From NCBI GenBank assembly GCA_030144725.1, contig JASKMD010000029.1, forward strand, positions 8,235,443 to 8,299,442: a DNA stretch of 64,000 nt. Reading direction: 5' to 3'. Below are positions 967-60,400 of this stretch, piece by piece. The notes beneath the pieces were generated by a model. The model did not search any database, was not told the DNA's origin, and saw only the letters and a list, made by a program, of their open reading frames with translations. Each line of letters starts with the position of its first letter. Position 1 is the first letter of the stretch. This DNA is from Haematococcus lacustris (lineage: Eukaryota > Chlorophyta > Chlorophyceae > Chlamydomonadales > Haematococcaceae). The position numbers and the translations under genes were made by a program.

Positions 967-1121
967 TGTGTGCACTAGGCAATGCAATGTTGTTATCTTT
1001 ACAAGAGCACGTGGTCCATGCCAAAGTCTATTGCCCCACCTTCAAAAGGGGGCAGGGGCAGAGAATTAGGTATTGGCCCGGACATCCAATCCGGGTTACA
1101 GATAGCGCAGCCCTAAATTGT
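967..1121 (+). ncRNA. conserved 3' tail of Fz-1, candidate guide-RNA scaffold
   Basis: About 155 bp just after the Fanzor stop align with the tail of Fz-2 (7318-7474, minus) and with a solo copy at 59495-59585 (minus). Shared core: AATTAGGTATTGG (1064-1076), then a perfect stem CCCGGA/TCCGGG (1077-1082 with 1090-1095), TTACA, and a CAGCCC block near 1108. In TnpB and Fanzor systems the guide RNA is made from the 3' end of the gene and element, so position and structure fit. Transcription is not shown by sequence. It could simply be a conserved element end. Confidence 0.4.
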
Positions 1122-1609
1122 AGGGTAAATATGTGCTCATGTAACTTGTGTCACACCCTCACAATATAACTGGCAAGTATGTGTGCATTATGACTGCATC
1201 ACACAAAATCACCCACCCACCCTTCCTGCCCCCATGTACAGTGCAGCACCCTTCCTGCCCCCATGCTCAAAGTACCACCCAGCACCCAAACAATGTTGCA
1301 CATAGCATGCATGGCCATCACCACCAGTACATGCGGGCAGTTTACATCGGTCCATGTCTGTCATGCCACATTAGCGGGCAAGGCCTGTTGAGGTGCAGGC
1401 CAGTGGAGAGAGGGCAGGAAGGGTGATGTGTACATTGCCTGGGGTCTGGGACTGGCCATCTTAGCCTAGTGCAGGCTGAAAAGCTGGTATCTCAAACCTT
1501 GCACGGGGTTTTCTCCTGACTCTTTCCCTAGGTGATCACATCTGAGCCCTGATCTCTAAGCGAGGGTTTCATTGAGGTGTGCAAGACCATGCTTGGCGGC
1601 GCCCGCTGC
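1122..1609. other. intergenic, 3' flank of the Mia40-like gene
   Basis: No exon recognised. It contains imperfect duplicates of a CCTTCCTGCCCCCATG word (about 1221 and 1250) and C/A-rich sequence. The minus-strand 3' UTR of the Mia40-like gene should lie at its right end. Confidence 0.3.
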
Positions 1610-6549: not shown

Positions 6550-7048
6550 TGAGAGACAATCTGCCCGCCTGTGGTGGCGTCAATGACGTGCTGGGCCCTG
6601 TGGGTCTGGTTTGCAACTGTTAGGTCGTGCAGACAATAGTACTGGCGCGTGAGCCAGTTCTCTGCACCGCTTAGATTGAACACAGCAGGATGCTCATCAA
6701 GTGATGCGTGCATATGGCGGCAGGGTGGCAGCTAGCCATGCACTAGTGTGAACAAAAACCGTTAACTATGCTATACCATGTACAGTACTCCTGCAAAGGT
6801 TCACTGCCTTGCCCTGCCAGCTTGTGACGCTATTGCACCCGGTAGTTTTGGTCGCTCAGGTGCTCTGCCTTGCACTTGTGCATGTCGTCCATGTCTTCCT
6901 GTACATGTCCAGTCTCCCTGCTTCCAGTAGTGTTTAGTTCCCTCGCATGAGGATAGTGTTTAGTTCGCATAGTGTTTAGTTCCCTCGCATGAGAACGATT
7001 CAAGGGTTGACGAGGGACGATGCATGATAGCAGCTGCATACGATGTGT
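6550..7048. other. intergenic with short direct repeats
   Basis: 3' flank of kinesin-13. A word containing TAGTGTTTAGTTC and CCTCGCATGA recurs about three times between 6930 and 7000. No gene seen. Confidence 0.35.
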
Positions 7049-7317
7049 GGCTTACACCGCTTAAGCCGTCAGCCGTTAGGCTGCTAGGCCGCCCTCCCCC
7101 TCTAGGGGTTCGGGACTTTCTGCAACGCACTTCAAAGCAAGGTGCACATACAAAGGTGCACATGCGCTCAACATGAAGTCATGCAAGTTCTCATTATTGT
7201 TCTGTACAGTCATGGCAAACTCCGGCTGCTCTCTGATGGAACTCGTGGCAGTGCACTCAAAGATGAAATGCATGGCGTCATCCACTACCCCCTCTGTGCA
7301 TCTGGTGCATGTGCGAT

Positions 7318-7474
7318 GTAGGGGCTGTGAAATGTGTAATCCGAACTGTTTGCATGCAACAAGCATCCGGTACCAATACCTAATTTCCCACGCCTCCCCC
7401 TTCGCGAGAGTCAGGCGATCGATGTTGGCGTGAAACACATGCTCTGATGTAAGCAACAGTTCAAGCATTGTGTG
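7318..7474 (-). ncRNA. conserved 3' tail of Fz-2, candidate guide-RNA scaffold
   Basis: Lies directly after the Fanzor stop. Its outer end is fixed at about 7318, because LINE sequence resumes there when compared with the uninterrupted LINE at 52514-53600. It contains AATTAGGTATTGG (7373-7385, minus), a CCGGA/TTCGG stem with one wobble pair enclosing a TGCATGCA-containing loop, GGATTACA, then CACAGCCCCTAC at the terminus. This matches Fz-1 and the solo tail, with stem bases that vary but still pair. Confidence 0.45.
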
Positions 7475-8652
7475 CTACTGTGCTACAGGCTGCTGGGCTT
7501 GGGCCTTGGGGGCTCGGTCTCGCAGCTTCTTGAAGCCCAATGCTGGGTACTCCTTGCCCTTGGCTGGAAGCCTTGCTCGGTGTGGCCACCTGCACAGCTC
7601 CAGTGGGCGCCACTTGCTCTCCCCTGCCCGCTGGAGGTTGAGGGCTGCGTTGCAGTCCCTGTCCACCCATTTGACAAGATCCACAGGGGTGGCCTGAGCC
7701 AGCCAAGGGCACCACATGAGCCCCCGCACTGGCGCCTCAAACCGCTTGCTCCAGGCTGACAACAACAAGCGGTGCTGCACCTGACCCGGCTTGGGCTTCC
7801 AGTCCTCAGGCCTGGTGGGCTTGCTGCTGTCCAGCTCCTCCTCACAGGGCTGGGGGCTGTTCATGATTGAGCTGACCCTGCTGGTGCCGAACTCATCCAC
7901 TGTCACCACCTTGCCTTGCAGCCTGTCTGTTGGCTTGCCGCGGTTAAGCCTCTCCACCACCTTGCGGCAGGCCTGCAGCACGGCCTTGGCCCCCCACCCA
8001 CCTCGGTTGCCAATGCCTGCGTTGCCAAAGACCACCACCAGCTGCTTGCGGGCCCCCCACTGCAGCTGGGACACGCTGGCTGCCTCCTCCTCCAACTGCA
8101 TGGCACACAAGGCACCCACCGCGCATGACATCCTTGGCAGAACTGGAGACATGGGCACCTAGCAGGTCACATGTGGGGCAGTCATCATCACCTGGCCCTG
8201 CCCCTCCCCCCCTACCCTTGGCACTCCCACCTTCTTGAAGTAGCGTTGTAGGACCTTATCCTGCGCACCATGCAGCCTCATCTTCTGCTCAGCCCACTTG
8301 GGATGCAGATACTCCCCCCACACTGCATCCCAAGTGGCCAGGGTGACGGCCACATGCCGTTGGATGGCCACCAGGGAGGTGCCTGCTGGGGTGGCTGCTG
8401 CCAGGTGCTGCAGCTCGAGCTTGATGTTCTCATTCACTGCTGAGTGTTGTGGCGAGCCTGGATTAGGCCGCTGTCATGCTGCACCTGGCTCCTGGTCAGC
8501 TTGCACCTGTAGAAGCCTTGCAAGCAGCCATCCTCACGCCACACCCCTGAAGCTGCGCTGACTGCCTGGATGGCACCAGGGTCCAGCCTCATGCCCATCT
8601 GAGTGGCTGGGTCAAACAGGAACGCCCGCTTGTCAGAAAGGCCGCTGCCAAA
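7475..8652 (-). pseudogene. Fanzor copy Fz-2 inserted in a LINE, 5'-truncated
   Basis: Starts in mid-protein with FDPATQMGMRLDPG, keeping the RuvC-I aspartate (8581-8583). A frame break follows near 8430 (HNTQQ then a stop), then QRHVAVTLATWDAVW and an exon end before an intron (about 8159-8240). The long final exon (from 8158) has VVTVDEFGTS (RuvC-II, Glu codon 7892-7894), PQPCEEEL and LMWCPWL in place of a zinc ribbon, then WVDRDCNAALNLQR (RuvC-III, about 7640-7670), KGKEYPALGFKKLRDR and a stop. All three RuvC motifs can be read, but the N-terminal half is missing and the frame is broken. Compared with intact LINE copies the insertion removed 20 bp of target and made no target duplication. 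Family role: RNA-guided DNA endonuclease. Confidence 0.82.
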
Positions 8653-9455
8653 AACCGAGCCTTCTCCACCCCCAGACCGTTGTTGCCTAATCTGAACCTA
8701 GTCAGGCTCGTGCGAACTTCTGTAGAGAGCTGTCTGTTAAGCAGGTGTGGTGCCATGTGATTGATGCCAATGCCGTCCCCATGCTTGAACCATGCAGCAT
8801 ACGAACATCTCTCCCGATGCACCGTCTCAGGCAGTCTAGGGTCTCCCTCAAACCCAACCCAACGCCTCCCCCACCTCTCGAGCCACTTGACTTCCATAGC
8901 CTTGGTGCCTAGGACCATGTCCGGGCTCAAAGTAAACTCACACCCCATCAGCTCTCTAACGGCCAGCTGGAACTGAGCACTCCAGCTGGTCTGGCAACTC
9001 CTGCCTAACTCCACATCTGCCTTGATGACCCTCATAAGCAGGTCACTGTGGGATAGTTTGGCAGTGTTCCAGAACTTGCATGCAGCCCTTAGCCAGTAAA
9101 GCTGGAGGGGCAGCTGCCCCAACTCATGCAGCACCATCAGGCCTGACACTGAGCTACGTACCCTGGCAGCAAACCTGAGAAAGCTGAGCATGCGTGTTTG
9201 CACTGGGTTGGAGAGTTGCACACCATGCCCAAGGAAGGCAGTGCCCCATACCTGGCTGCCATACAGCCCCAAGGGGAGCACAAACGCTCTAATGAGGTGA
9301 CACAGGGCATATGGATCATGCAGGACCCCATACTCTCTGGCACGCTTGCACGCCTGGCGCATGGCGAAGAACATGCCAGCCCTCATATGAGTGGCAGCAA
9401 AAGCAGGGGTGGCGCTGGGGTTGAAGTGCATGCCTAAGTACTTGAACTCTCTCAC

Positions 9456-9723
9456 CATATCGCGCAGCCATGTCCACCACCTCCTCCTGCTAGCAGCCCG
9501 CGCGGACATATGGCATATCGCGCAACCATGTCCACCACCTCCTCCTTCTAGCAGCCCGCGCGGACATATGGCATATCGCGCAGCCATGTCCACCACCTCC
9601 TCCTGCTAGCAGCCCACGCGGACATATGGCATATCGCGCAGCCATGTCCACTACCTCCTCCTGCTAGCAGCCCGCGCGGACATATGGCATATCGCGCAGC
9701 CATGTCCACCACCTCCTCCTGCT
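9456..9723 (+). repeat. 58-bp tandem repeat, about 4.6 units
   Basis: Period 58 measured from successive CATATCGCGC words (9456, 9514 and onward). Each unit carries a near-palindromic GACATATGGCATATC. It lies where the LINE reading frame stops, so the array grew at a LINE breakpoint. Confidence 0.85.
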
Positions 9724-12325: not shown

Positions 12326-15300
12326 TCATGGCCTCCTCACATCAGCCTCAGCCGTACCAGCCTCCAAACCGAGCTTCTGTAGGTAGGCAGTCAACATCTC
12401 CTGGCACCCCACCAGCTGTGACCTGGACTCCCACGTGTTGTGCTCGTCCCCATGGCCCTGCCACTTGACCAGGAACTCCAACTGCCTCTTCTTGGGCTTG
12501 TCACCCCGCTTGCCTTGGCTCTTGGCCAGCCGGTGATCCACCACCTTCTCCACCTTGTACTCTGGCTCTCCATCTAGCCACTGCAGTGGGGGTGGGCCTG
12601 CGTGCCCAGGCACCTGGTCAGAGGCATCGTAGGTCCTGTAAGTCAGGCGTTCCCAACATGGGGTTGGTAATCTTCATGCAACTGCAGCCCATCTACTCCA
12701 TCATTTCATGTAACGTTTGCTGCGTCTGGTGCAATGCGACAATGCGCGTTTAATGTAAGACTGGAGTTGCCATCGGAGTCATTCGATGCGGGCAGCCACA
12801 TGTGACCCCGGATGTGTCCCAAACACAGACCGTGGTTAGCTACACTGGTAAGCTACGTCCTTGGCTATCCGTTAGCGATGCACGACATGTTGGTGGCGCA
12901 CACCACCGAAGTCCGGCAAACATGGCTGCGCGAGCTTCCTGATGGTGCAGGCCGCTTGGCGAGGATGTGAAGAAACTCGAAACTGTGTGTGGCAGCGCTG
13001 TATCGTTGTAATGGTGGGCGGCACAGTAGGGACTAGTCACCCCCTCCAGCTATGATCCGCTTTATGTTTTGGACCATTGAACATTTATGTTTTGTTTTAT
13101 GTTTTTGAACAGAACATTTATGTTTTTGTTTTATGTTTTTGAACATTTATGCTTTATGTTTTGGACCATTGAACATTGCACCCCTCAGCAGCAGCAACAG
13201 CTGGCAGCCGCAAGCACGTCACGTAAGCGTGAGGCACCTGCAGCTAACAAGTCGAGGGCAGCAAAGCAAGGTGAGACAACACCACGTACTGCACCTAGCA
13301 CCTTGTTTAAGCGCAGTACAGCAGCCGGTAATGCACTAGCGCCAGCAGCAGCTCCAAAAGCTAATAGTGGTATCCAGTCGTCACGACTGCCGTCGTCGCG
13401 TCCACATGCCAAAAGCAAAACATGTTCCGACTGCTGCTGCGCGTTGCAGGTGCCACTCACAACAGTGTGGCGAAGCGTGCTAGTGCGGCGCGCCTCGCAT
13501 GGGGCGAAACCGCATGAATTCAAACGTCGATCTTTGGGCAGGCACTGAGCACCGCTGAGAGCGAGATAGTTTATGCTGCGTCTGCCATCTCGTAGCTATG
13601 AGTCTCCTCTGTTTAAAGCACTGTTTACATATATTTTTGACTGAGTGGTTGCGGAGATACGGGCTTCCTATCACAGGAGGGTGGTTTTCAGGTAGTTGGG
13701 AACGCCTGACTGTAAGGCTTCACAAGGGACACATGAAACACGTTATGGATCCGAGACCACTCCTCAGGCAGGTCCAGCTTCACTGCTGCTCTGCCCACCA
13801 TGTACTCAACTCGGAAAGGACCGACATAGCGTGGCTTCAGTTTTCTGGCACCAGGCTGGCCCACTCTGCCCCTCATGTTTTGTGTGCTCAACAACACCAT
13901 GTCGCCAGGTTCAAACACCGCGTCACGCCGCTTGGTATCCTGGTAGGCCTTCATGCGCTTCTGCGCTCGGGCTAGGCATTGCCTGGCCTGCTCCACCGCC
14001 TGCCTCGCATTGGCCACGAACTCGTGCGCCTGCGGCACTCTCTGGGGCAGGTCCAGCAGCTCAGCCACTCGCGGATGGTAGCCGTAGTTTAGGTAGAAGG
14101 GCGTGCAACGGGTGGACTCCTGCTTGGCATTGTTGATGGCGAACTCGACGAGGGGTAAGTGTTCCGCCCAGTCCTTCTGGTCGGGCCTGATGTAATGCCT
14201 TAGCATCTCCTCTATCACCCGGTTCATGCGTTCCGTTTGACCATCGGTCTGGGGGTGGTAAGCACTCGACAGGTCCAGGTCCACCTGGAGCAGCGCCGCA
14301 AGCTCAACAAAGAACCTGTTGTTGTTCAGGTTAGGTCCCCTGTCGCTCACAATGCTGTCTGGCCAGCCGTGTAGGCGAAACACATTGTCGACAAAGAGCT
14401 TGGCATATTGTACCGCTGTCATGCGCTCCCAGGTCCTGGCCAAGTGCACCATCTTGGTCAGCCGGTCCACAATCACCAAGATTGAATCATGCTTGGCTGG
14501 TCCACTTGCAGGGAGCTTCACAATGAGGTCAAGCGACACGGAGCCCCAAGGCCTCAAGGGGATAGGCAGCGGCTGTAGCTTGCCAGCGGGCTTCTGGGCG
14601 CTGGACTTGTTTAGTTGGCACGAGTGGCAGGTGCGTACGTAGTGCTTGACAGCCTCTGACACACCCTGCCAGTCAAAATAGCGTGTTACTTGCTCAAGGG
14701 TCTTTGTCATGCCCAAGTGACCCGCAGACTTGGCATCGTGCATGGTGTGTATCACTCTCCTCCTCAGCTTCTCATCATTAGGCACCACCACCTGGCCACG
14801 CTCTGTTAGCCACAGCCCCTCCAGCCGGTGTAGCTTTGAGGTGAAGGCAGCCTCGTCAAACCGCTTGTCCGCCCCGTAGGCCTGCTTGACTGCTTGCAGC
14901 AGCGTTGTGGGGTCTGACCCGTCACTGGCCTCTTGTTGCTCTGTGTCCTGCCGCAGGGTTTCCCCCCCACCTGGCTGCAGCCCTCTAGGCGTGCCGGCAG
15001 CCATGTCAGCAGGCGGGGTCAGCTTGCCAGCCTCATAGGCCCTCTCCCTGGCCACAGCCTGCTCTCTCTCAGCCACCTTGCGGAGCTCAGCTGCTGTGCG
15101 GCGGGTGGTGGCAGCCAGCACTGCACCGTCATGTCCAGGCACCAGCAGTAGCACCGGGCAGCTCTCTGTGGCAGGCATGCTTAGCGCCGGGTTGCGGCTG
15201 ATGGGATCAGCCACATTGTCCGCACCAGGATGGTATCTGATTTCATACTTGTAACGGGACAGCTCCTCCATCCACCGTGTCTGCCGCCTTGACAGGTTTG

Positions 15301-17353
15301 CTTGCGTTTGAAGGTAGATTAGGGGGTTGTGATCAGTTTGTATTGTAACATCCACAGCTCCATCCAGGTAGCACCTCCATTCCCTCACAGCCCTGATGAT
15401 GGCTAGCAGCTCCTGGTCTCCTGTAGAGTACCTTGTTTCAGGTGGTGACAGCTTTTTGCTGGTGTAAGCTATGGGTCTGCCTTCTTGCAGCAGCACTGCT
15501 CCAGTGCCCACCAGCGACGCGTCAGTGCACACCACAAAGGGCTTTGTGAAGTCAGGCAGTGCCAACACAGGAGCAGAGCACAGGGCGTCTTTCAGGCCAT
15601 TAAATGCTTTCAAATGTGCCCCCCCGAACTTTTGCCAGTCGAACTGTGCCGCAGCCGTCTTGCTGGTCAGGTCGGTCAGTGGCGCGGCGATAGCGCTGAA
15701 GTTAGGAATGAAGCGCCGAAAGTAGTTCGCCAATCCCAGAAAGGCCTGCAGATCCTTCAGGTTGCGCGGAACGTGCCACTCCCGGACCACTTTCACTTTT
15801 GCTGGGTCGACAGCAATGCCATGTTCGCCCACAATATGGCCGAGGAACGCCAGCTCTGTTTTGTTGAACTCGCATTTGGAGCGTTTGGCGTAGAGCTTGT
15901 GTTGTCTCATGAGCTCCAGCACCTCTTTCAGATGTCGCACATGCTCCTCAGCAGTATTGCTCATGACCAGGATGTCATCAATGTAAACCAGCACAGACTT
16001 GTTGATCAGAGGTCGAAACACGTTGTTCATGACTCGTTGGAAGGTAGCAGGAGCGTTTGTAAGCCCGAAGCACAGCACTTTAAACTGGAACTGCCCCATG
16101 GGCGTCAGGAATGCTGTCTTGGGCCGGTCCGCCTCTGTGATCCTGATTTGATGGTACCCGGATTGGAGATCAAGGGAGCTAAACACTTTCTTGCCAGCCA
16201 ACCTGTCAAAGAGGTCATCAATCCTCGGCAGGGGATATCTGTCTTTCACCGTCAGTTTGTTTAGTGCTCTGTAGTCAATACACATCCTCAACGACCCGTC
16301 CTTCTTCTCCACAAACAGCACAGGGGCTCCATAGGGGCTACCGCTGGGCTCTATCAGCCCCCTGGCTTGCAGCTCTGACACCTGTCTCTTGACCTCAGCC
16401 TCCTCCCTGGGGCTCAGCTTGTAAGGCCGCTTGTATGGTGGCGGAGCATCAGACTCCATCCTGATGGTGTGCCCTACACCCCTGTCTGGGGGCAGACCTG
16501 GCGGCATGTCCTGGAACACATCAGAGTACTCATCTAGCACAGCCTGCAGCTCTGCATCTGTGACCAGCTCAGATCCATCCTTTCCACTGCTCTCCTTGCA
16601 GCCTGCCACTGCAGCAGCCAGGCTCCCCTTGTGCCAGCCCTCTGTGTCACTTTCACTGCCAGGCTGCACCAACAGCAGCAAGCTGCGGCATCCCTTGCGA
16701 AGCAGCCTCGCCGTCTGTCCCACGCTGAGCGGTTCCGCTGGCTCGACTAGCCCTCCTGAGGCTACGGCAGCCTGAGCTACGGCTTCAAAAGATGGCAGGT
16801 GTTTCGAGCGAAGTGCCAGCAGGTTCGCCGGTTTGCCCTCAGGCGACAATAACGTGCACACCCCGTGCTTCGGTTTCATCACCACGTCGTTGGCGAACAG
16901 CCAGTCCGATCCCAGGATTAAGTCGACACCCTCAATTACTCTGGGCATGACTCTGGCCATTACGATGGTCTTGCTCTTCTGAATCTCCAGCAGGCCTGTC
17001 CTCTTCTCATTCAGCACCACACGCTCATTGTTGGCAGTCAATACTGGTGTTGGCCTCATGGCTTCCTTTTCCAACGTAGCATCAGATGGGTCTATCTTGT
17101 GCTTTTGCAGCCACTGGTCACTGATGATGCTGAAGGTAGCGCCAGTGTCCATCATAATCTGGCATGGCCTGCCTCCAAAGCGGCCCACATACATGAAGGG
17201 TAGCTGTAGCGTTTCAGCCTTGTCACTGAGAGTCCCCGTCGGTGCGGTAGCCAAGATGAGCTTCTTACATGTTGACCTCTCATCAAACACAGGTATAGGC
17301 TCATACAAAGGCGGTCCTGGCAGGTCTGCACCTCGTTCCCACCAGGCAAAGCC
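12326..17353 (-). CDS. Gy1 pol: protease, reverse transcriptase, RNase H, integrase, chromodomain
   Basis: Follows gag in the same frame after TAG at 17354-17356. Main part down to 13711, then split by the TIR element 12642-13710 and finished by 12326-12641. Counting from the first Met at 17308: protease MMDTGATF at about 54; RT RMCIDYRALNK and YIDDILVMS near 440; RNase H DASLVGTGAVLL; integrase HHCC zinc finger (about 855-900, HDAKSAGHLGM ... CHSCQLNK); DDE core with SLDLIVKL, SDRGPN and GQTERMNRVIEEM. Next to the insertion, VKPY continues as RTYDAS across the removed element. The tail reads LEFLVKWQGHGDEHNTWE, a chromodomain that in chromoviruses directs integration by binding histone marks. 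Intact apart from the insertion. Confidence 0.93.
12642..13710. mobile_element. nonautonomous TIR DNA transposon nested in Gy1 pol
   Basis: 1,069 bp with perfect 16-bp terminal inverted repeats GTCAGGCGTTCCCAAC and a 5-bp duplication TGTAA (12637-12641 and 13711-13715). Excision at these points rejoins the pol frame. Inside: AT-rich direct repeats (13060-13180, word TTATGTTTTGGACCATTGAA) and a short open frame rich in Lys, Ala and Ser (about 13187-13548) with no recognised domain. No transposase seen. The TIR resembles hAT ends, but a 5-bp duplication is short for hAT, so the superfamily is left open. Confidence 0.88.
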
Positions 17354-18658
17354 CTATTGATCATCATTGTGAGCCCCACGGCTACCACGGTGCTGTTGCT
17401 TGTTGGCACAGTCTTTGGCGTAGTGTCCTCGCCCTCCACACTCGTAGCACACGTCACTGGGCTGGTTGGGCCCCTTGTGTCTCTTACGGTCACGGTCACG
17501 GTCACGGTCGTCTGCGAACGACACATGGCGGGCGTCCCGGCTTGGACTGCGGCCTCTGTTGTGCCCGCGACCCTCATCACGACGCCGCAGGTCCACTGGC
17601 TGGAACCGGTCCAGTCGCTCATTCAAACGACCCTGCAAGGTACGCCCACCATCAGCAGAACGGCTTCGTGAGCGCCCATTGCTCCTTCCACTGAAGCTGC
17701 GCCCTCGCCCCGCAAACACGGCCACACTAGGCCCACCATCAAACTCCTCGTCGTCAAGCTGGGGTGCAGCAGTGACAGCGGTGACAGCACGCACAGACAC
17801 TTTGGCAGCTCGCGCAGCAACATCACGCCCACGTGCAAAAGCAAGCAGCGCATCCAGCGATTCCCATCGCTTCCCATCAGGCATAGTCGCACACTCCCGC
17901 TTCAGCTCAGGTTTCAGGCCAGCGATGAAGTACATACACAGGAGGTCCTGGGGCAAACGATGCAAGCGCATGGACATCAGCGAAAACTGCAGACAGTAAC
18001 TCATCAACTCCGCTCCCTTCTGGTGATACTCCCGATCCACCAGCTTCTGCATCAGATCCGCCTCATTATTCTGATTGGTGCACCCAGTGGCCCTCCTAAG
18101 CCACGCTTCTAGCTCCGCATCAGTAAGATCTTTGCCTTGCTGCCTGTAGCTGCTCACCAGCTGTACCACAGCAGCTTTCAGATCACCACTCAGGGCCTGC
18201 AGCACTCCCGCCACCAATGGCTGCTGCGTTGCACGGCACCACTGGCCCACAAGCCAAAAGTAAGACTCAAAGTCCCTGTTTCGCAGCACATCATCAATCT
18301 TCCAAGCCTCAGGCAGGCTCACGTTCGTTCTGACCACATGCTGTGCCGCTGGTGCTCCTGGCAGCGACCGACCACTTGCGTCTCCCAGGCCAGCTCCGCC
18401 AAGGTTTGCAAGTGCGCCATGCTGGCTTGCACCACCTCCGGCCGCGCTTCCAGAATGTGCCTCTCGGCGCTCAATCGCCTCACGCCCACTACTTCCTGGG
18501 CCACCACTACGCTTCCCTTGCTCGCGGGACTCTTGCAACTCCCGCTCTTTTGCGGCCAACTGAGCTTGCAAGGTCTCCACAGTTCTTTGCAAGTCCTCAG
18601 GACTATTGCCCCTTTCCATCGCCGCTCTCGCAGAATCTCCCTCAGCCGACTGGGTCAT
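17354..18658 (-). CDS. Gy1 gag (nucleocapsid polyprotein)
   Basis: 434 residues from ATG at 18656-18658 to TAG at 17354-17356. N-terminal coiled-coil-like stretch (TVETLQAQLAAKERELQE), a central retrotransposon gag region (SYFWLVGQWC ... LPQDLLCMYFIAGLKPEL), an Arg/Ser/Asp-rich linker, and one CCHC zinc knuckle CYECGGRGHYAKDC. The stop context is CAA TAG GGC, with pol open in the same frame beyond it. Confidence 0.92.
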   Translation of the reverse strand: MTQSAEGDSARAAMERGNSPEDLQRTVETLQAQLAAKERELQESREQGKRSGGPGSSGREAIERREAHSGSAAGGGASQHGALANLGGAGLGDASGRSLPGAPAAQHVVRTNVSLPEAWKIDDVLRNRDFESYFWLVGQWCRATQQPLVAGVLQALSGDLKAAVVQLVSSYRQQGKDLTDAELEAWLRRATGCTNQNNEADLMQKLVDREYHQKGAELMSYCLQFSLMSMRLHRLPQDLLCMYFIAGLKPELKRECATMPDGKRWESLDALLAFARGRDVAARAAKVSVRAVTAVTAAPQLDDEEFDGGPSVAVFAGRGRSFSGRSNGRSRSRSADGGRTLQGRLNERLDRFQPVDLRRRDEGRGHNRGRSPSRDARHVSFADDRDRDRDRKRHKGPNQPSDVCYECGGRGHYAKDCANKQQHRGSRGAHNDDQ

Positions 18659-18904
18659 TGTACCGCATAAAGGTCTTCCGCACGCAGGCTCACTAGCCAC
18701 ACAGGCTCTCAGCTCTCACAGGCTCACTAGCCACTCAGCGTCCGCACTCCGCCGTCGCCTCGCGACTTTTACAAACACTGGCGCACTACACTGGCGCACT
18801 ACAGTCGCTTCAATACAACCGTGCTTCCACACGCCAACCAGGACGCTCTCTGTCGCTCGGCTCAAACACACCCAGTCCGGCTCAGGGCATCGGTCGGAAA
18901 CCAC

Positions 18905-25560: not shown

Positions 25561-27037
25561 GTTGAGTCGTACGAGAAGATCGCTAGTGTTTGGGTCTACT
25601 CAGATTCCTCCGGCGCAACGGTGAGCTCAGAAGCAGGCATCAACCCCGTTGCAGATTGCATCAGGCTCACCTATCTAGCCGCGGTCATGGAAGCAGTCGG
25701 GAAGTGCTGCGTTCTTGTACTGTGAGTCTGCAGCACAGCTGGTTTCTGTGTCAGGCATTTGTTGATGGTGCAGCAGCCTATCCTCAGCATGCATCGCGTA
25801 TGCCTATTCTGGCATACTTCTTTTCCAACTTTCGCCCTTATGGTCCATGCTTCATGCTCCCTCGACCAAACGACCAAACGAGACATGTGCTTGCTGCTTG
25901 GGTTGCAGATGGCAGAAAAGATTGTAGTAAGCGTTGTGGATGCGAGTGGCATCAGGTCCGCTCAGACCTTCATGGAGGATGGGCAAACGGCCACCATGAC
26001 AGCTTCCCTTAATTCAGCAGGGTGTGGATAGGTCTAGGATAGGTCTGTGTAACCGATGCCCAGCTTTAGGACGTCAAGTTCAGCTCGGCCACATGGGGAC
26101 AACACCATGTCATATATGTGTAATGGATCTCACTTCCGCCTCATTCCGGTTGTCGCCACTCCGGTTGGATGGCGACCTGATGCACCCCCCAGCATGGCCA
26201 CTGCGCTTGGATAATGTTGCCGAAGCCCTCAAATGTCGCGGAATAAGAAACGCAAGCGCCCCGTCTCCCGCGCACAGGGTGCAGCCGGTAAGCCCCCCTC
26301 CCCCTCCCCCAGCCCAGGAGCCACCTCCCCCTCCCCCTGCCCAGGCCCAGCCCCCTCCCCCTGCCCAGGACCAGCCCCCTGCCCAGCCCCCACATGGCCC
26401 AGTACAGCGACCCCAGGCCCCCCCATGGGGCAGGTGGTTGGACCGGGACACCAACCCGTGCCTCAACTTCCAGCGCATTGGGGAGAGCATGCAGCGCCCC
26501 CTGGAGTTGTGCCGCTGGGAGGGCTTGGAGGCTCTGCCCCCCATTGGCAAAGAGTACCAGCAGGGCTACAAGCGGGTCAATGACCGGCTGCCCAAGGTCA
26601 GGCAGCAGCTGCACCGGGCTGCAGAGTACCGGCGGGGGATTGATGGACGGGCCCGCAACAATGCATAGGCCCTACTAGTTTACACAGGTTGTTAGCCTTA
26701 CAAAGCATTAAGCTGTTAGTTTTGATGAGGTGCCCAGTGGTCAAGGGGGATTAGCCCCAGGAAAGAGTGCCACCGGAGTGGGGTTTGTAGTCATCAAGGG
26801 TGCGACCGATGATGCTACGTGTTAGTAGCTGAGTGAGATTACCCACAGGCCGACATGTTGTTCCTTGTTGAATGAGTTTTGTTTGTCTGCTCAGACTTTC
26901 AGGCGGTAAGACACATCAAGCGGTCACAGGGGTCTTAGAAAAAGCTTTTGGTGTGGGGTGCTTGGTGAATGTACAAGGTGACACTGTTACACCCGATGAT
27001 CCAGTGGCAGCTGGTCCCTACACTTACACCGTGACAG
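25561..27037 (+). CDS. unrecognised multi-exon gene, copy A
   Basis: Exons seen by splice sites and cross-copy conservation: 25561-25620 (VESYEKIASVWVYSDSSGAT), 25909-26021 (MAEKIVVSVVDASGIRSAQ ... SLNSAG), 26895-27037 (LSGGKTHQAVTGVLEKAFGVG ... PYTYTVT). The 873-bp intron before the last exon contains the Fanzor fragment Fz-4 in the sense direction. I do not recognise the family. The mix of beta-strand-like VVSVVDASG and VNVQGDTVTPDDP suggests a small beta-rich domain. It could be the N-terminal part of the kinase-like gene downstream (28913), but no exon chain links them. Confidence 0.5.
26230..26668 (+). pseudogene. Fanzor C-terminal exon fragment Fz-4 (RuvC-III)
   Basis: A Pro/Ala/Gln-rich linker (about 26290-26425) is followed by GRWLDRDTNPCLNFQRIGES, RPLELCRWEG and IGKEYQQGYKRVNDRLPKV, ending at a stop (26666-26668). 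The DRD of RuvC-III is kept, but the usual NAA is NPC. RuvC-I and RuvC-II are absent. It differs from Fz-1 and Fz-2 in its long linker and tail, so it is a separate subfamily. In the 3' flank GGGG/CCCC form a small hairpin around 26747-26760, but the tail shared by Fz-1 and Fz-2 is missing. Deleted from copy B. Confidence 0.75.
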
Positions 27038-30793: not shown

Positions 30794-31274
30794 GTTGGTT
30801 TCCGACCCATGTTCCTGAGTCCGACTGGATCTATTTGCCACGTATCTGCCTGAGGATGAGCGGCAGAGGACGTCCTGGTGTGAAAACGCGGTTGAGTCGG
30901 AGCTGGCTGTAGTGCGCCAGTTGTGGAATTGTCGCGGAGCGACGGTTGTGTGTGGGCTCTGAGCTGAGCGAAGAGGCTAGAGAGCCTGAAACCAGTGGCT
31001 AATGAGCCTTTGTGCGGTACAACCAGTCGGCGGAGGTTGGTTCTGCGAGAGTGGCGATGGAGGTGACAGTAGTCGTCGAGAGGCCGGTGATGGCTCAGTT
31101 GGGTGCGAAGAAGTTGCGTGACCCAGGAGCGCGAGAGGCGTAGTAGTGGTTCCGGAAACAGTGGACGCTGGTGCAAGCCGAAGTATTGTTAGGCGGGCTT
31201 GGCCTGGGAGAAGATCTTGATCTTGTGCCTATGTTTGAGGCCAACTCTGCGTGTAAGAGAACGGCTATGGGGCT

Positions 31275-34200
31275 ATGGATACACCACCGAATGCTGCAGA
31301 GGCACAGCCTGGAAGGCTGCAGCTGCCTTTTCTGTTTGAGGGTCGGCTAGGTAAAAAGCCGTGCAGAGCCATGCTTGACACAGGTGTCAGTTGCACCATA
31401 ATCAGCAAGGAGTGGTTGGAAAGACATGAACGCAATGTTAACCCTGCTGCACTACAAAGGAAGATCATGATGAAACCTCTGAGAGTGCTGACCGCAACCA
31501 AGCAGCCTGTGGTAATCACTGAACGTCGTTGTGGCCTGCTGGAGGTGCAAAAAAGCAAGACGAATTGCAATGCAGTGGTCATGCCAGGAATGCTCAACGG
31601 TGTCGACCTGATCCTAGGTGTCGATTGGATGCACGAGCACGATGCAGTGCTGAAGGTTAAGCACGGGGTGTGCACGCTGTTTGAGGCACTCGGAGAGTCG
31701 GGGAAGCCTGTCAACTTGTTCGCACTGCAACCAAAGCACCTGCCTGGGTTTGCGGCTGTGGCTGCTATGAAAGAGCAATGGGAAAGCGCAGCCGAGATTA
31801 ATCTGCTCAGTCCGGGCCAGGCCGTGCGACAACTGCGGAAAGGTTGCAGCAGCTGGCTGATGCTAGTGAAGCCTGGCGATGCTGGCGACCAGGAGGGCTG
31901 GCACCAGGGCAGCTTGGCAGCTGTAGTGGCTGGATGCAGTGAGCAGAACACGAAGGCTGAGCAGGACCCCGAGTTGGTGCCACAAGCTGTGCTAGATGGG
32001 TTGCTATCTGAGTATGCTGATGTGTTTGGGGACATGCCACCGGGGTTGCCCCCTGACAGGCCAGTGGGGCACACAATCAGGACACCACCCAGGGCTGAAG
32101 CTCCCTACAAACGTATGTACAAGCTCAGCCCTGAAGAGGAGGCTGAGGTGAAGAAGCAGATGGCTGAGCTGCTGGCCAAAGGGTTGTTTGAGCCAAGCAA
32201 CAGCCCATACGGGGCACCAATCTTGTTTGTGCAAAAGAAAGATGGGAGCCTGAGAATGTGTATTGATTACCGTGCTCTCAACAAGTTTACAGTAAGGGAC
32301 AGGTACCCCCTGCCCAGGATTGATGACCTATTTGACAAGCTGGCTGGCAAGAGGGTGTTTAGCTCCCTAGACCTGCAGTCTGGGTACCACCAAACCAGGA
32401 TTACAGAGGAGGATGTGCCCAAGACTGCCTTCTTGACGCCAACGGGCCAGTTCCAGTTCAAGGTGCTCTGTTTTGGGCTGACCAACGCCCCTGCTACGTT
32501 CCAACGGATGATGAATAACGTATTCAAGCCTTTGATCAATGAGTGTGTGTTGGTGTACATTGATGACATTCTGGTGATGAGCAATACCCCTGAGGAGCAT
32601 GTGCAGCACCTGAGGCAAGTCCTGCAGCTCATGCGAGAAAACAAGTTCTACGCCAAACTGGCAAAGTGCGAGTTCAACAAAACGCAGCTGGCGTTCCTGG
32701 GCCACATCGTGGGCAGCAATGGCATTGCTGTCGACCCTGCGAAAGTGCAAGTCGTAAAAGAATGGCCGACGCCGCGCAACTTAAAAGACCTGCAGGCCTT
32801 CCTGGGGCTGGCAAACTACTTCAGGCGGTTCATACCCAACTTCAGCTCTCTGGCTGCGCCGTTGACGAATCTGACCAGCAAGCAAGTGGCTGCTGCGTAT
32901 GACTGGGAACACTTTGGGGGTAGCGAGCTAGAAGCATTCGATGGCCTGAAAGAGGCGCTGTGCTCTGCTCCTGTGCTGGCTCTGCCTGATTTCAGCAAGC
33001 CTTTTGTAGTGTGCACTGATGCGTCGCTGGTAGGCACCGGTGGGGTGCTGATGCAAGATGGCAGGCCAATTGCTTACACAAGTAAAAAGATGTCCCCAGC
33101 TGAGACGCGCTATGCCACTGGAGAGCAGGAGCTGCTGGGTATAATCAGAGCAGTCAGAGAGTGGAGGTGCTATTTCAATGGAGCGGTTGATGTTACAATC
33201 CTGACTGATCACAATCCCCTCATCTACCTGCAAACACAGCCCAACTTGTCGAGGCGGCAGGTTAGATGATGGAAGAGCTATCACGCTACAAGTATGAGAT
33301 CAAATACATACCCGGTGCAACTAATGTGGCTGACCCTATCAGCCGTAACCCCGCTCTGGCCAATGAGGTGGCGCTTACATGCTCATCATCACCACACAAT
33401 GCTGACTCTGAAGACGCCATGACTGTGATCATGACGCTAAGCTCCCGGGCTGAAGGGCTGATCTACGCCATCACTACACGCCGCACTGCTGCCCGGCTGC
33501 GAGAGAGTGCTGAGCTGGGGCAGGTGGCTGCCCGGGAGGCTGCCCAAAGAGCAGGCCAATTGGCCCCACCTGATGATTTGGCTGCTGCCCATACGCCTGG
33601 CCAGGCAAGAATGACAAGTGCACATAAAAAGGGGGCGCAGCCAGGTGGGGGGGAAGCCCTGCGGCAGCAACAACAAACAACAGAGTCACAAAACAAATCA
33701 AACAAACAAGGTGGTGACGAGCAGTCCACAACTGAGTCGGGTCCCTTAACCCTAATGCAGGCAATCAAACAAGCCTATGCGGCTGACACACGCTTTGCTG
33801 ATGAGGCCTTCACATCGCAGCTGTACCAGCATGAGGGGCTGTGGCTGACTGAGTGGGGCAGAGTGGTGGTTCCTGATGACGCTGCGCTGCGGAAGAAAGT
33901 GATATACACCATGCATGACACCAGGTCTGCTGGTCACCTGGGTATGACGAAGACCCTAGAGCAGGTGACGCGCTGGTTTACATGGCCCGGTGTTTCAGAG
34001 AATGTGAAGAGCTACGTGCGCAGCTGCCACTCGTGCCAAGTGAACAAGTCAAGTGCCAAGAAGCCTGCTGGCCTGCTGCAGCCGCTGCCCATACCTGAGA
34101 AACCGTGGGACAGCGTATCAATGGACCTCATAGTGAAGCTTCCTGCAAGTGGGCCCAACAAATATGACTCAATATTAGTGTTTGTGGACAGACTAACAAA

Positions 34201-35284
34201 GATGGTACACCTGGTGAAAACCTGGGAGAGCATGACTGCCACACAGTATGCAAAGCTGTTCCTTGAGCATGTCTTCCGGCTGCATGGGATGCCGAGGAGT
34301 GTGGTCAGTGACAGAGGGCCCCAGTTCCACAACAAGTTCTGGGCTGAGGTGACCAAGCTGCTCCAGGTCCAGGTGAACCTATCCAGCGCCTACCACCCTG
34401 AAACAGATGGCCAAACAGAGCGTGTTAACCGGGTGATCGAGGAAATGCTAAGGCACTTCATCAGGCCTGACCAGCGGGACTGGGCGGAGTACTTACCTCT
34501 GGTGGAGTTCGCCATCAACAATGCCTGGCAGGAGTCGGTCCGCAGTACGCCCTTCTACCTGAGTTATGGCTATCATCCGCGGCTGGCGGAGCTGCTCGAC
34601 CTGCCACAGAAGGTGCCGCAGGCGCATGATTTTGTGAAGGGCATGAAGACAGCGGTTGAGCAGGCGAGGCAGTGCCTAGCGCGGGCGCAGAAGCGCATGA
34701 AGTCATATCAGGATAACAAACGGCGTGAAGTACTTTACCTGCCTGGTGACATGGTGCTGCTGAGCACACAGAACATGAGGGGTAAGGCTAACCAGCCTGG
34801 AGTCCGTAAGCTGAAGCCTCGCTATGTGGGCCCATTCAATGTGCAGTACATGGTGGGCAAGGCAGCTGTGAAGCTGTGGCTGCCAGATGAGTGGTCTCGA
34901 CTCCACAACGTGTTTCATGTGTCCTTGGTGAAGCCCTATCGCACAGATCCTTCAGGGGCAGTGCCTGGGCTGGCTGGACCACCTCCTGTGCAGTGGCTAG
35001 ATGGAGAGCCCCAATACACAGTGGAGAAGGTGGTGGGCCACAGGCTGGAGCCCAGCAAAGGCAAGCGCAAGGGCAAGAGTAAGAAGAGACGGCTTGAGTT
35101 CCTGGTCAAGTGGCAAGGACACGGTGACGAGCATAACACATGGGAGTTGAGCACACAGCTGGTGGGCTGCCAAGAGCTGATGGCCAGGTACATGGCAGAG
35201 CACAACCTGGGTGCCGAGGCTGAGGAGGCGGCTGATGGCGAGGCTGAAGCTAAGGATGATGTTGAGGCTGAGGCCCAGGCCTGA
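31275..35284 (+). pseudogene. Gy2 pol with one frameshift
   Basis: Two overlapping frames (31275-33269 and 33266-35284) together make a full chromovirus pol: protease MLDTGVSCTII; RT CIDYRALNKF and VYIDDILVMS (about 32560); RNase H DASLVGTGGVLM; integrase zinc finger HDTRSAGHLGM ... CHSCQVNK; DDE core SMDLIVKL, SDRGPQFHNKF, DGQTERVNRVIEEM; chromodomain LEFLVKWQGHGDEHNTWE. Compared with Gy1, one G is missing at about 33268, between RNase H and the next segment, creating an early TGA. All catalytic motifs remain. An acidic ALA/GLU tail ends the protein. Confidence 0.93.
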
Positions 35285-35409: not shown

Positions 35410-35572
35410 TGTTACGTGATGATGTAATGCTGAGGCAATATTCGTAACGCCCCTATGAGAAGTGTGACGTGGTGCGGTGATCTGAGGCCGGGTTCGATTC
35501 CCGGGCAGACTTCCTGACAACGCCCAGTCTGTCATGGAGAACTCTGTCACTGTCACCGGACGTCTCGTAACA
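35410..35572 (+). repeat. Gy2 3' LTR
   Basis: Identical in all 163 positions to the 5' LTR, implying insertion within a very short time. Confidence 0.96.
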
Positions 35573-52513: not shown

Positions 52514-53600
52514 GATAGGTGGCTTACACCGCTTGAGCCGTCAGCCGTTAGGCTGCTAGGCCGCCCTCCCCCTCTAGGGGTTCGGGACTTTCTGTAACGC
52601 ACTTCAAAGCAAGGTGCACATACAAAGGTGCACATGTACTCAACATGAAGTCATGCAAGTTCTCAATATTGTTCTGTACAGTCATGGCAAACTCCGGCTG
52701 CTCTCTGATGGAACTCGTGGCAGTGCACTCAAAGATGAAATGCATGGCGTCATCCACTACCCCCTCTGTGCATCTAGTGCATGTGCGATCAATGAAAGTT
52801 ACCCCCTCGAACCGAGCCTTCTCCACCCCCAAACCGTTGTTGCCTAACCTAAACCTAGTCAAGCTCGTGCGAACTTCTGTAGAGAGCTGTCTGTTCAGCA
52901 GGTGTGGTGCCATGTGATTGATGCCAATGCCGTCCCCATGCTTAAACCATGCAACATACGAGCATCTCTCCCGATGTACCGTCTCAGGCAGTCTAGGGTC
53001 TCCCTCAAACCCGACCCAACGCCTCCCCCACCTCTCGAGCCACTTGACTTCCATAGCCTTGGTGCCTAGGACCATGTCCAGGCTCAAGGTGAACTCACCC
53101 CCCATCAGCTCTCTGGCGGCAAGCTGAAACTGAGCACTCCAGCTGGCCTGGCACCTCCCGCCTAACTCCACATCTGCCTTGATGACCCTCATTAGCAGGT
53201 CACTGTGGGATAGTTTGGCAGTGTTCTAGAACTTGCAAGCAGCCCTAAGCCAGTAAAGCTGGAGGGGCAGTTGCCCCAACTCATGCAACACCATCAGGCC
53301 TGACACTGAGCTACGTACCCTGGCAGCAAACCTAAGAAACCTGAGCATGCGTGTTTGCACTAGGTTGGAGAGTTGCACACCATGCCCAAGGAAGGCAGTG
53401 CCCCATACCTGGCTGCCATACAGCCCCAAGGGGAGCACAAACGCTCTAATGAGGTGACACAGGGCATATGGATCATGCAGGACTCCATACTCTTTGGCAC
53501 GCTTGCACGCCTGGCGCATGGCGAGGAACATGCCAGCCCTCATATGAGTGGCAGCAAAAGCAGGGGTGGCGCTGGGATTGAAGTGCATGCCTACACTCGT
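52514..53600 (-). mobile_element. LINE fragment, copy B, uninterrupted
   Basis: Continuous minus-strand ORF2 C-terminus, from MHFNPSATPAF through GLYGSQVWG and WLERWGRRWVGF to CTRCTEGVVDD, broken only by the TAG at 53227 shared with copy A. It is the reference for locating Fz-2, Gy2 and the 36101 element. Confidence 0.85.
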
Positions 53601-57439: not shown

Positions 57440-60400
57440 ATGCGGCGCCCCACGGCTCAGCCGCCTCCAGCCAACCAGCGCGTGTACTTCAAGTACCACA
57501 TGCAGCGCTTGCAGACTACCGCAAACCATGTGCTCTTCTACGTAGTGGATGCAAACAACGCAGCCAAGCTGGCCCTTGTGGTGAGGCACAGCTCGCCACC
57601 CGCCCACCCCACACCCACCCACTTGTTGCCCCACACTGCTTGGTGCCGCCACAAGCATTAGCTTTGTGAGGGTGTGCGTGGCGATGCGATGCTGTACACT
57701 GCTCACGGCTGCTGCTGGCTGGGCTGGGTCCCTCTCCTGGATTGCACAGGGCACGGACGTACGGCTGTCAGGCCACTTTGTGTACTGCACCCTTCCTGAG
57801 TTCAAGGAGGCCCCACCCATCCGCTGCACCAACCGTGTCAAGGTAGGACGCCCACTTGCTGCCCCATGCCGCCTGGTGCCGACAGCTGTTGCCAACAGCT
57901 GTCGCCAACAGCTTTGTAAGGTAGGACGCATACAGCTCTCACACTGCACCACACACCAACCTCAGCTCCGGCAGCATTGGCTGTTTTGTCTACCTCACTC
58001 ATGCTGGTACGCTGGTCGAGCACCATGTGGCCAGAGCAAGGGGCCAGGTCAAGGGGTCAGGTCAAGGGGTCAGGTCAAGGGGTCAGGTCAAGGGGTCAGG
58101 TCAAGGGGTCAGGTCAAGGGGTCAGGTCAAGGGGTCAGGTCAAGGGGTCAGGTCAAGGTCGAGAACACTATGCACAGCTTCCGGGGCCGCTGTGCTCTCA
58201 GGCCAGAGCCCAGTCCTTCACTGGCTTGCTGCTTTGCTCATGCGCATCAATGCGTGGCGATGATGCAGCACAGCACCGGCCACGAGGAAGCCAGCCAGGG
58301 TAGGGGCGCAGCTTCAGCGACCCCTGCATACTCCAGCAAAGCACGCAGCAGCCGTAGTCAGGGATGGCCCTGGACAGCCTCCTGCCCTGCAATGGGCAGG
58401 GACTGGGGCTCCACTGGTGCAGTACCCCTGCCCTGGCCTCCATGGCCTTGGGCCTTGGCAGGCCGGACAGGAGTGGCCGCCACAATAGGCTGGGAAGGCT
58501 TCGGGAGGCCTGGGCTGGGCGCCATGCCACCCTTGGTGCACACCCCGTGCCCTCCTCTCACTCTCATGGGCACCTGGGTCACCCACAATGCCACACACAT
58601 GAGACCACCAGGTCACAGACTTATGGGATTCATAGGGCTTATAGGGCTTATATGGTTTGTATATTGTATGAGGCTTAATGAGGGGTTTAGGGTTTGTAGG
58701 ATTTGTAGCGTTTAAATGCCGCCGGTACCCGCTTCTGTGACTCTTCACACCAGGGCAAACAGACCAGACAACCCTGGCACCTGGCCAAGGGGAGTGGCGC
58801 TGGCTAGTCGAACTGCCTCCCTACTTCCCTGTGTGTGGCCCTCCTCTGGGCGAGCAGACCCAGCATGGTGCTGCATGGCATGGCACATGCAGGTCATGGA
58901 GTGGCTGACGTGTCTGGGGGCCACCGAGGCTGCTGACCCAGACCAAGTGCAGGTGCGGTGGGAGCGTCCGGAGCTAAACTGCTGCTGCTAGGCTAACTAC
59001 CTGCAGCAACTGGCCACCGGTTTGACCAGCTGACGTTGCCAGGCAGACTGGCTTTCACATCATCAGCCTGACAGCATGCACACCTTCTTTCCGGTTGGCC
59101 ATTTCATCAGTAGCTGGGATCCACATGCATGTTTTCTTACCAAGGCTCCATGCCATGCAGCAGCAGCTGCATGTCGGCTCAGCATGGCCTGGGGTAGCTG
59201 TAGGACTCGGCTGATCCTCCTCAGTGCTGGTGCCGCGCAGGTTCCCAGCATATCCAGCAAGGAGCTGGAGATGCTGCTCACCAGTGACCCCATGTTCAGC
59301 AAGCCAAAGATGGACAGGTGAGGCTCCCTCCTCACACCACTCCATCTCCCTCCCCATCTCCCTCCCCATCTCCCTTACTAGTCATCCATCTGTTTTAGAC
59401 ATGAAAAGGCACAGTCGTCTTAATGAAGGTAATCTGCGGCTTCTCAACTAATTCTCAACTAATCCTCATGCATACAGCACATTATTCTCCTACTAATGGG
59501 TAGTGGCTGTGTCATCTGTAATCCGCACTGAGTAACTGCGACCTACAGCCGGTACCAATACCTGATTTCCTACCCCAATCCACTTGCGAAGGTGGTGCTG
59601 CTTCTCCTGGTGCAGGGAGTACACTGCTGCTGCTGCTCATCTAGTGGTGATGCCCCTGCTGCTGCTGCTGCTGCTGCTGCTGCGCCTGGTGCTCCTGGTG
59701 CAGGGAGTACAACAGCTGGCGTGAAGAGGGAGGCCGCTTGCCCGATGGGCGGCACTTCAAGAACTTTTACCTGGTTGACAGCAGTGGGCAGGAGGCCCAG
59801 GAGCGGCTGGTCATCACGGCGGAGGACAGCCACCGCAAGGACAGGTGACTGAGCACAGCTGTCTGCCTCTTGCTAGGTTGTGTTGTTGGGTGGGGCCCAT
59901 GGGTCGATTCGAATAGCACCTCAAGACCCAGGTCGCTGGGTGCACCAGGTTGCCGCAGTGCAGGTAGAAATGGTGCATCAGGTCGCCCCTCTCAGGTCAG
60001 GTGGCCAAAACAGCTCCAGCAGCCACCTTAAGCCCCAATGCACATGGTCCAACGCAGCCTGGTTCTTGGCTGCTCAGGTCCAGCCACCTGGCAGGCTGGG
60101 GACTGTTGCTTGGCTGCCTTGTCCCTGACAGCTGGGGCGGCTGAGGTTGCCACACCAGCTCTCCCCTGTGTGCTGTGGCAGCTGTTCCGAAGGCTGTGCC
60201 CACATGGGGGCACCATGTTGGGCTGTGTCAATGACTATTGTACCATTAGCTCCTACTGTGCCCTAGTGTCACAGTGCCAAGCATGACAAAGCGCCACCAC
60301 CTCCCAATCTGGCACCATGGCCACTCTACTCCCTCTCCCACCTTGCTGCTGGAAGTGTGATGGCGTCGTACCAGGGGTCACACCAGGAACTACACCAGGT

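Follow-up and report, generated by a model that had tools for sequence, protein, structure and literature searches.

A recurrent tail as the probable 3' terminus of a Fanzor1-like transposon family in Haematococcus lacustris

The analysis of a stretch of 64,000 nucleotides of the Haematococcus lacustris genome (the window), located at 8235443-8299442 of contig C166, revealed that the tail following the stop codon of a decayed Fanzor1-like gene copy, Fz-2, represents a real similarity that recurs in the host genome. A genome search carried out with this tail matched 40 of the 40 places scored (E <1e-47; 1574 first-look candidates), and the Fz-2 open reading frame (ORF) retrieved 478 relatives, the best 120 of which all belong to Haematococcus lacustris. 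In our opinion, the tail is probably the 3'-terminal region of a multi-copy and probably non-autonomous Fanzor1-like transposon family with one-ended mobility, which might also act as a guide-RNA scaffold. As a kind, such a family is nothing unusual; its details are what make it informative.

The tail is present three times in the window, and a profile search of the 64 kb disclosed no copy beyond these three. The Fz-2 tail (7318..7474, minus strand) spans positions 2-158 of the 182 of the family model and thus stops 24 nt short of the family 3' end. The Fz-1 tail (967..1137, plus strand) reaches the family terminus ATGTGCT at 1131-1137 and embeds a terminal hairpin (CCCTA, 1111-1115; TAGGG, 1121-1125), and a solo tail (59476..59598, minus strand), 5'-truncated and reduced to the 3' end, terminates at 59476 and exhibits the arms of the same hairpin at 59503-59500 and 59493-59490. 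The similarity among them, recognised by the initial annotation, is confirmed by the comparison of the Fz-2 tail with the solo tail (76.6% over 77 bp, E 2e-11) and with the Fz-1 tail (70% over 80 bp, E 8e-4), as well as by the motif AATYAGGTATTGG, identical in all three. The further idea that the tail has been conserved while the coding part decayed holds only for the gaps: the Fz-1/Fz-2 alignment is far more broken in the exons (95 gap columns out of 262 and 238 out of 615) than in the tail (20 out of 157), but the identity of the aligned columns falls from 86% and 83% (the two exons) through 78% (intron) to 74% (tail). Hence, between copies, the tail is less gapped than the coding part without being more similar; moreover, neither the longest invariant run across the three tails (9 columns, P ~0.10) nor their best 13-column window (P ~0.06) speaks for preferential conservation. 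A derivation of the tail from a LINE was rejected on the lack of any DNA match to the LINEs of the window, and a coding nature because the reading frame left open in Fz-2 is interrupted by stops in the solo copy.

Two further Fanzor1-like remnants lie in the window, that is Fz-4 (49079-50218, minus strand), harboring the TDG and DPG motifs, and Fz-3 (26432-26665, plus strand), corresponding to the RuvC-III end; both share ~55-57% identity with relatives of Fz-2 over the matching parts. The sequence downstream of Fz-3 (26669-26900) was considered as a possible fourth tail and discarded, no clear similarity being detected (P 0.04 with Fz-1, 0.14 with the solo tail and 0.81 with Fz-2). The window also contains two long Ty3/gypsy-like elements encoding protease, reverse transcriptase, RNase H and integrase, one at 13688-18715 (minus strand) with an adjoining CCHC gag-like ORF and the other at 31257-35284 (plus strand) with a chromodomain.

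Fz-2 as a whole (7318..8652, minus strand), as delimited by comparing its flanks with two uninterrupted copies of the LINE in which it resides, is a 5'-truncated and 3'-trimmed Fanzor1-like copy whose start lies a short way upstream of the RuvC-I DPG motif and which retains its intron, the motifs being in frame. Its C-terminal ORF (7475..8158, minus strand), the stop-to-stop frame of which starts within the intron, contains the motif VDEFGTS with the alternative glutamate, a degenerate zinc finger and the RuvC-III motif DRDCNAAL. On one side, the LINE (7047..7317) matches 52519-52789 and 35570-35831 at 97-98% and, by eye, includes a zinc-knuckle-like end of a LINE ORF on the minus strand; on the other side (8653..9436), it matches 52810-53593 at 96% and, in part, 35852-36100 and 37556-38094. 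The assignment to a LINE follows the initial annotation and motifs judged by eye, and a Pfam search with the neighbouring frame 8589-9605 gave no match. With respect to the two LINE copies devoid of the insertion, Fz-2 fills 7318-8652 and 20 bp of LINE sequence are gone there; these are found at 52790..52809 and, identical, at 35832-35851. With the final 24 nt of Fz-2 absent, together with 20 bp of the LINE, the most satisfactory reading of the 7317/7318 junction is that of a scar left by a deletion; a single later deletion would have removed the end of Fz-2, any target-site duplication (TSD) and the 20 bp of LINE. The resumption of the LINE at 7317 had been taken to fix the outer end of the element; the LINE does resume there, but it does so without those 20 bp, and Fz-1, the solo tail and 25 more distinct genomic copies proceed ~24 nt further. 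Close to this locus, at 9456-9723, the window harbors a tandem repeat with a unit of ~58 bp and copies ~96-97% alike.

The 3' border of the family emerges from the comparison of 30 fetched loci, whose copies end with CACAGCC(Y)CTAC, a loop and GTAGGGGAATAATGTGCT, followed by varied flanks. Whether all copies end at CACAGCC(A/C)CTAC had been raised as a check; this was not borne out, given that 27 of the 31 distinct tails (Fz-1 and the solo tail of the window included) pass CAGCC(Y)CTAC and continue for ~24 nt through a short loop, GTAGGGG and ~11 nt ending with ATGTGCT, one of them (L031) with altered last bases (ATGTT). The four tails without the full pattern are Fz-2, L028, L037 and an older copy in L026, which extends to model position 180 with the end pattern unmatched. 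The terminus model was built on 27 tails, leaving out L023 (which is Fz-2), L028, L037 and identical copies. In the window itself, the resemblance between Fz-1 and the solo tail extends over the 22 bp that follow the supposed end, with agreement in 17 of 22 columns of an alignment counted by hand (P 0.027). The early end of L037 (reverse strand) is explained by a nested insertion of ~0.9 kb that splits the terminal hairpin; this insertion is flanked by an 8-bp duplication, CCCTACGC, and its ends, TAGGGCACGAC and GTCATGCTCTA, form imperfect inverted repeats of ~11 bp, hAT-like by eye.

Directly after ATGTGCT, TSDs of 12 and 13 bp were detected at two independent insertions, GTGATGGGGGTA in L055 and GGGAGAGAAGGCG in L061, chance matches at the two junctions (GCT and T) making the exact terminus uncertain by 1-3 bases. 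Overall, TSDs were found in three of the 26 rows examined, two of which are independent, as the flanks of L053 are those of L055 and represent one duplicated insertion. Their absence from the other rows is weak evidence, because the 5' junctions were roughly estimated against a single reference copy and were unplaceable in three rows. Of 27 copies, not all independent, 25 have a G as the first base beyond the terminus. Flanks are common to the pairs L047/L049, L043/L052 and L035/L041, as expected for duplicated segments. L053 and L055, located on the contig of the window (C166) near 8.30 Mb and 9.25 Mb, have both Fanzor copies and flanks in common, in opposite orientation, which suggests either an inverted segmental duplication of large size or a duplication in the assembly.

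As for the secondary structure, the Fz-2 tail can be drawn as a hairpin at 7341..7370 (minus strand), with an outer stem CCGGA (7370-7366)/TTCGG (7345-7341) and an inner stem TTGT (7362-7359)/GCAA (7353-7350). According to the initial annotation, the bases of the stem differ between copies and still pair. In the register aligning the three window copies, this does not hold, none of the six pairs being compensatory and four of 18 cells being unpaired. The analysis was extended to an alignment of 36 tails, mostly close copies, comprising the 34 distinct sequences among 66 hits covering model positions 95-150 (the 66 including overlaps between loci) plus two partial tails. Here, 154 of 169 cells of the proposed stem are paired, but only one is a double-change cell, and three Fz-1-type rows are out of register in these columns; thus, in its own columns, that hairpin is unsupported as a conserved structure. 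The inner stem, TTGY/RCAA in the family, contains one covarying pair (C-G in 11 tails, T-A in 12, T-G in six, C-A in none and other combinations in three), which is paired in 29 of 31 tails and whose columns changed at least five and at least four times on a tree of 31 of the 36 tails constructed with the hairpin columns excluded (permutation P 0.002). The terminal hairpin, CCYCTAC/GTAGGGG, ~11 nt before the terminus, has 211 of its 226 cells paired, none of them showing a double change. When the combined structure was compared with 500 shuffles, which leave kinship uncontrolled, its paired cells and its covariation score were each reached by four and its double-change cells by one, whereas the pairs changed on both sides were reached by 82 and the further pair types by 247, and the same structure slid by +1 yields five pairs changed on both sides. 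The predicted minimum energies of the tails do not differ from those of shuffled sequences (z -1.5 to +0.7). On the whole, these comparisons suggest that a hairpin is likely to exist in the tail. Its inner stem is dispensable in the Fz-1 subtype, given that 14 nt of the hairpin are absent from Fz-1 and from the copies related to it in L026 and L053.

Other structural signals were tried and set aside. An alternative helix predicted by RNAalifold (AAUYAGG..CGGAUU) is paired in 29 of 30 cells in the three tails and in 295 of 349 in the 36 tails, with one double change; an upstream hairpin is paired in 28 of 33 cells in the three tails, a value reached by 175 of 500 shuffles, and in 342 of 379 in the 36 tails, again with one double change. 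Lastly, the wobble asymmetry counted on 34 of the 36 tails (16 inferred changes from Watson-Crick to G.U versus eight to A.C and 10 to other mismatches) is not claimed as a proof of RNA pairing, because these changes are too few.

The protein encoded by the family appears to be Fanzor1-like with a degenerate zinc finger, rather than a canonical Fanzor1. The motifs considered, including the displaced RuvC-II glutamate, are those given for Fanzor1 in passages of PMC10711439, and the counts refer to the proteins, among the 188 fetched, in which the pattern located the place. The RuvC-I DPG is present in 33 of 36 (two DSG, one DRG), the alternative RuvC-II glutamate, which precedes the zinc-finger position by six residues, in 113 of 121, and the TDG of the WED domain in six of eight (one IDG, one NDG); DPG also occurs in Fz-2 and Fz-4, and TDG in Fz-4. 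The first CxxC of the C4 finger is missing from all 122 proteins, mostly replaced by S..L, S..M or S..V, and the later single cysteines are mostly retained. It is because of this absence that the protein is filed as Fanzor1-like; according to portions of PMC3627910, the C4 finger belongs to the common Fanzor motif, and sections of PMC10711439 describe it in many, not all, Fanzor proteins. The TNB domain of Pfam matched weakly 24 of 42 members (E up to 1, best 0.001), a search of the PDB for the protein family gave no related match, and the AlphaFold model was poor (mean pLDDT 48.7, too low for a fold search).

A further question concerns the way in which these elements have moved. The fetched copies have the 3' end in common and begin at scattered points, the earliest within the REC region or RuvC-I and the latest in the last codons; their length varies between ~114 bp and 3.4 kb or more, the 3' ends being intact. 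The intron is intact in the ten copies aligned unbroken to L062, that is Fz-2 and nine fetched ones (L053, L055, L058, L059, L061, L066, L068, L069 and L070, the first two being one duplicated insertion), and no spliced copy occurs among these ten; the intron was called from splice-like boundaries judged by eye and from gene models skipping it (P0051) or reading into it (P0127). Internal deletions also occur in L061, L066 and L072. The many points of 5' truncation and the retention of the intron in long copies point to a one-ended, DNA-like mobility, in which copying would begin at, or require, the fixed 3' end and would then stop early. This would be a one-ended transposition of the Helitron2 type, as described for the Chlamydomonas elements CRe-1, CRe-2 and CRe-3. 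The two duplications follow GGCT and CATT, contrary to the target rule of Helitrons, which insert after TTTT or other T-rich bases. Looking for a 5' terminus or a 5' inverted repeat, only a 15-bp satellite was apparent near the start of the element. Short arrays of this 15-bp unit, which resembles TGTTGCCAATGTAAC, lie in L026 (681-755), L030, L042 and L066, immediately upstream of the Fanzor start in L026, L042 and L066, and it is possible that they represent the 5' end of the element.

The combination of 5' truncation and TSDs is also compatible with retrotransposition. LINE/SINE pairs have common 3' tails with a 3' hairpin, 5' truncation and TSDs, all features observed also in the Haematococcus family; by analogy, a LINE reverse transcriptase might recognise the 3' hairpin of the unspliced Fanzor RNA and yield 5'-truncated copies, in agreement with the fixed 3' end and the duplications of 12-13 bp. 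However, the family differs from such pairs in keeping its introns, as the ten long copies compared reveal, and in having a 3' end free of terminal repeats, simple repeats or poly(A); furthermore, the window contains no partner LINE, nor does any further place in it, LINEs included, have the same end. We regard this mechanism as rather unlikely. One might also imagine that the tail is the ordinary 3' UTR of an mRNA, common by descent and functionless in itself, which would fit the lack of excess conservation in the three window copies and their ordinary folding energies. This is extremely improbable, given that a solo tail of ~120 bp exists and that 27 of 31 copies stop at the same sharp 3' border, which comes with TSDs and a terminal hairpin, and a transposon terminus remains the reading that we prefer.

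Could the tail also act as a guide-RNA scaffold? The passages of PMC10432273 on this subject report that Fanzor1 guide RNAs derive from the right end of the transposon, where the scaffold of SpuFz1, 75 nt long, is located and is used with a guide of 14-15 nt; parts of PMC10711439 predict that inverted repeat and TSD form part of the scaffold, and parts of PMC11423790 that its structure differs between species. As known Fanzor1 scaffolds overlap the right end of the transposon, a scaffold role is plausible for the tail as a second role beside that of transposon 3' end, the two readings being not mutually exclusive. If so, the tail of intact copies would be transcribed, its stem-loops would act as the scaffold, and the guide would correspond to the flank after GTGCT, ~24 nt beyond the border first indicated. 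The original proposal of a guide scaffold is sustained by the right-end position in a Fanzor1-like element, by a plausible hairpin and by one covarying pair in 36 tails, but most of these features are explained by the tail being the transposon 3' terminus. Its corollary, that the terminus of the tail sets the start of the guides, fails for the point indicated: 7318..7474 is devoid of the last 24 bases of the element, so guides would not start there. In its strictest form, with the tail being purely an omega-RNA scaffold whose terminus CAGCC(A/C)CTAC determines where guides begin, the proposal agrees with the position after the stop codon, with the SpuFz1 arrangement described in those passages of PMC10432273 and with the covarying apical pair. 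It appears very unlikely in view of the extension of 27 of 31 distinct copies ~24 nt past CTAC, the single double-change cell of the 169 in the proposed stem, the unexceptional folding energies and the lack of preferential conservation. It is also conceivable, though quite unlikely, that the 5'-truncated right ends scattered through the genome by one-ended transposition, most of them with their own flank after GTGCT, would, if transcribed, form a set of guide-RNA genes on which a small number of intact Fanzor proteins could draw in trans, in a Fanzor1 lineage that has lost the zinc finger.

The closest known systems agree with the preferred reading of a transposon 3' terminus to different extents. 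CRe-1, CRe-2 and CRe-3 of Chlamydomonas reinhardtii, described by Bao and Jurka (2013; PMC3627910) as Fanzor1 families of non-autonomous Helitron2 elements, have copies that are often 5'-truncated and almost all 3'-intact, with TSDs of 7-19 bp. The Haematococcus family resembles them in having a Fanzor1 gene with introns in a green alga of the same order, 5'-truncated or internally deleted copies with intact 3' ends, a hairpin near the 3' end and TSDs (12 and 13 bp) within that range, whereas their preference for T-rich tetranucleotides is not seen in it. The likeness is drawn from the published descriptions of these elements; Helitron2 elements of this type are further recognised by asymmetric terminal inverted repeats (ATIRs) at the 5' and 3' ends, a 5' hairpin and an autonomous RepHel partner having the same ends. 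A second parallel is that with the SpuFz1 omega-RNA and the "ghost" loci of Spizellomyces punctatus: in the sections of PMC10432273 dealing with them, a non-coding right end follows the Fanzor gene, and loci keep the end without the gene. According to the same sections, Spu-1 terminates in inverted repeats of 30 nt and both ends persist in the ghosts, unlike the gene-poor copies of Haematococcus, which are 5'-truncated.

Searches for relatives of the tail elsewhere gave no result: pattern scans returned four viral and 18 genome stretches, none of which is the tail by profile (best E 0.026), and a protein-guided viral scan together with a phage search revealed no relatives. One frame of the Fz-2 tail, compared with a protein database, gave one candidate and none at E <= 1, and among the matches listed between the fetched proteins and the tails nothing was better than E 0.09. 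Among the papers listed by a literature search for a link between the Haematococcus genome assembly and Fanzor, one (PMC12633428) names both Fanzor and Haematococcus, and it does so separately.

These results define, in an industrial alga, where a multi-copy Fanzor1-like family ends on its 3' side, and this fixes the point at which any guide would start. After Chlamydomonas, this is the second case, in the same algal order, of Fanzor elements with 5' truncation, fixed 3' ends and TSDs. Both the mode of movement of the family and the possible guide role of its solo tails thereby become testable.
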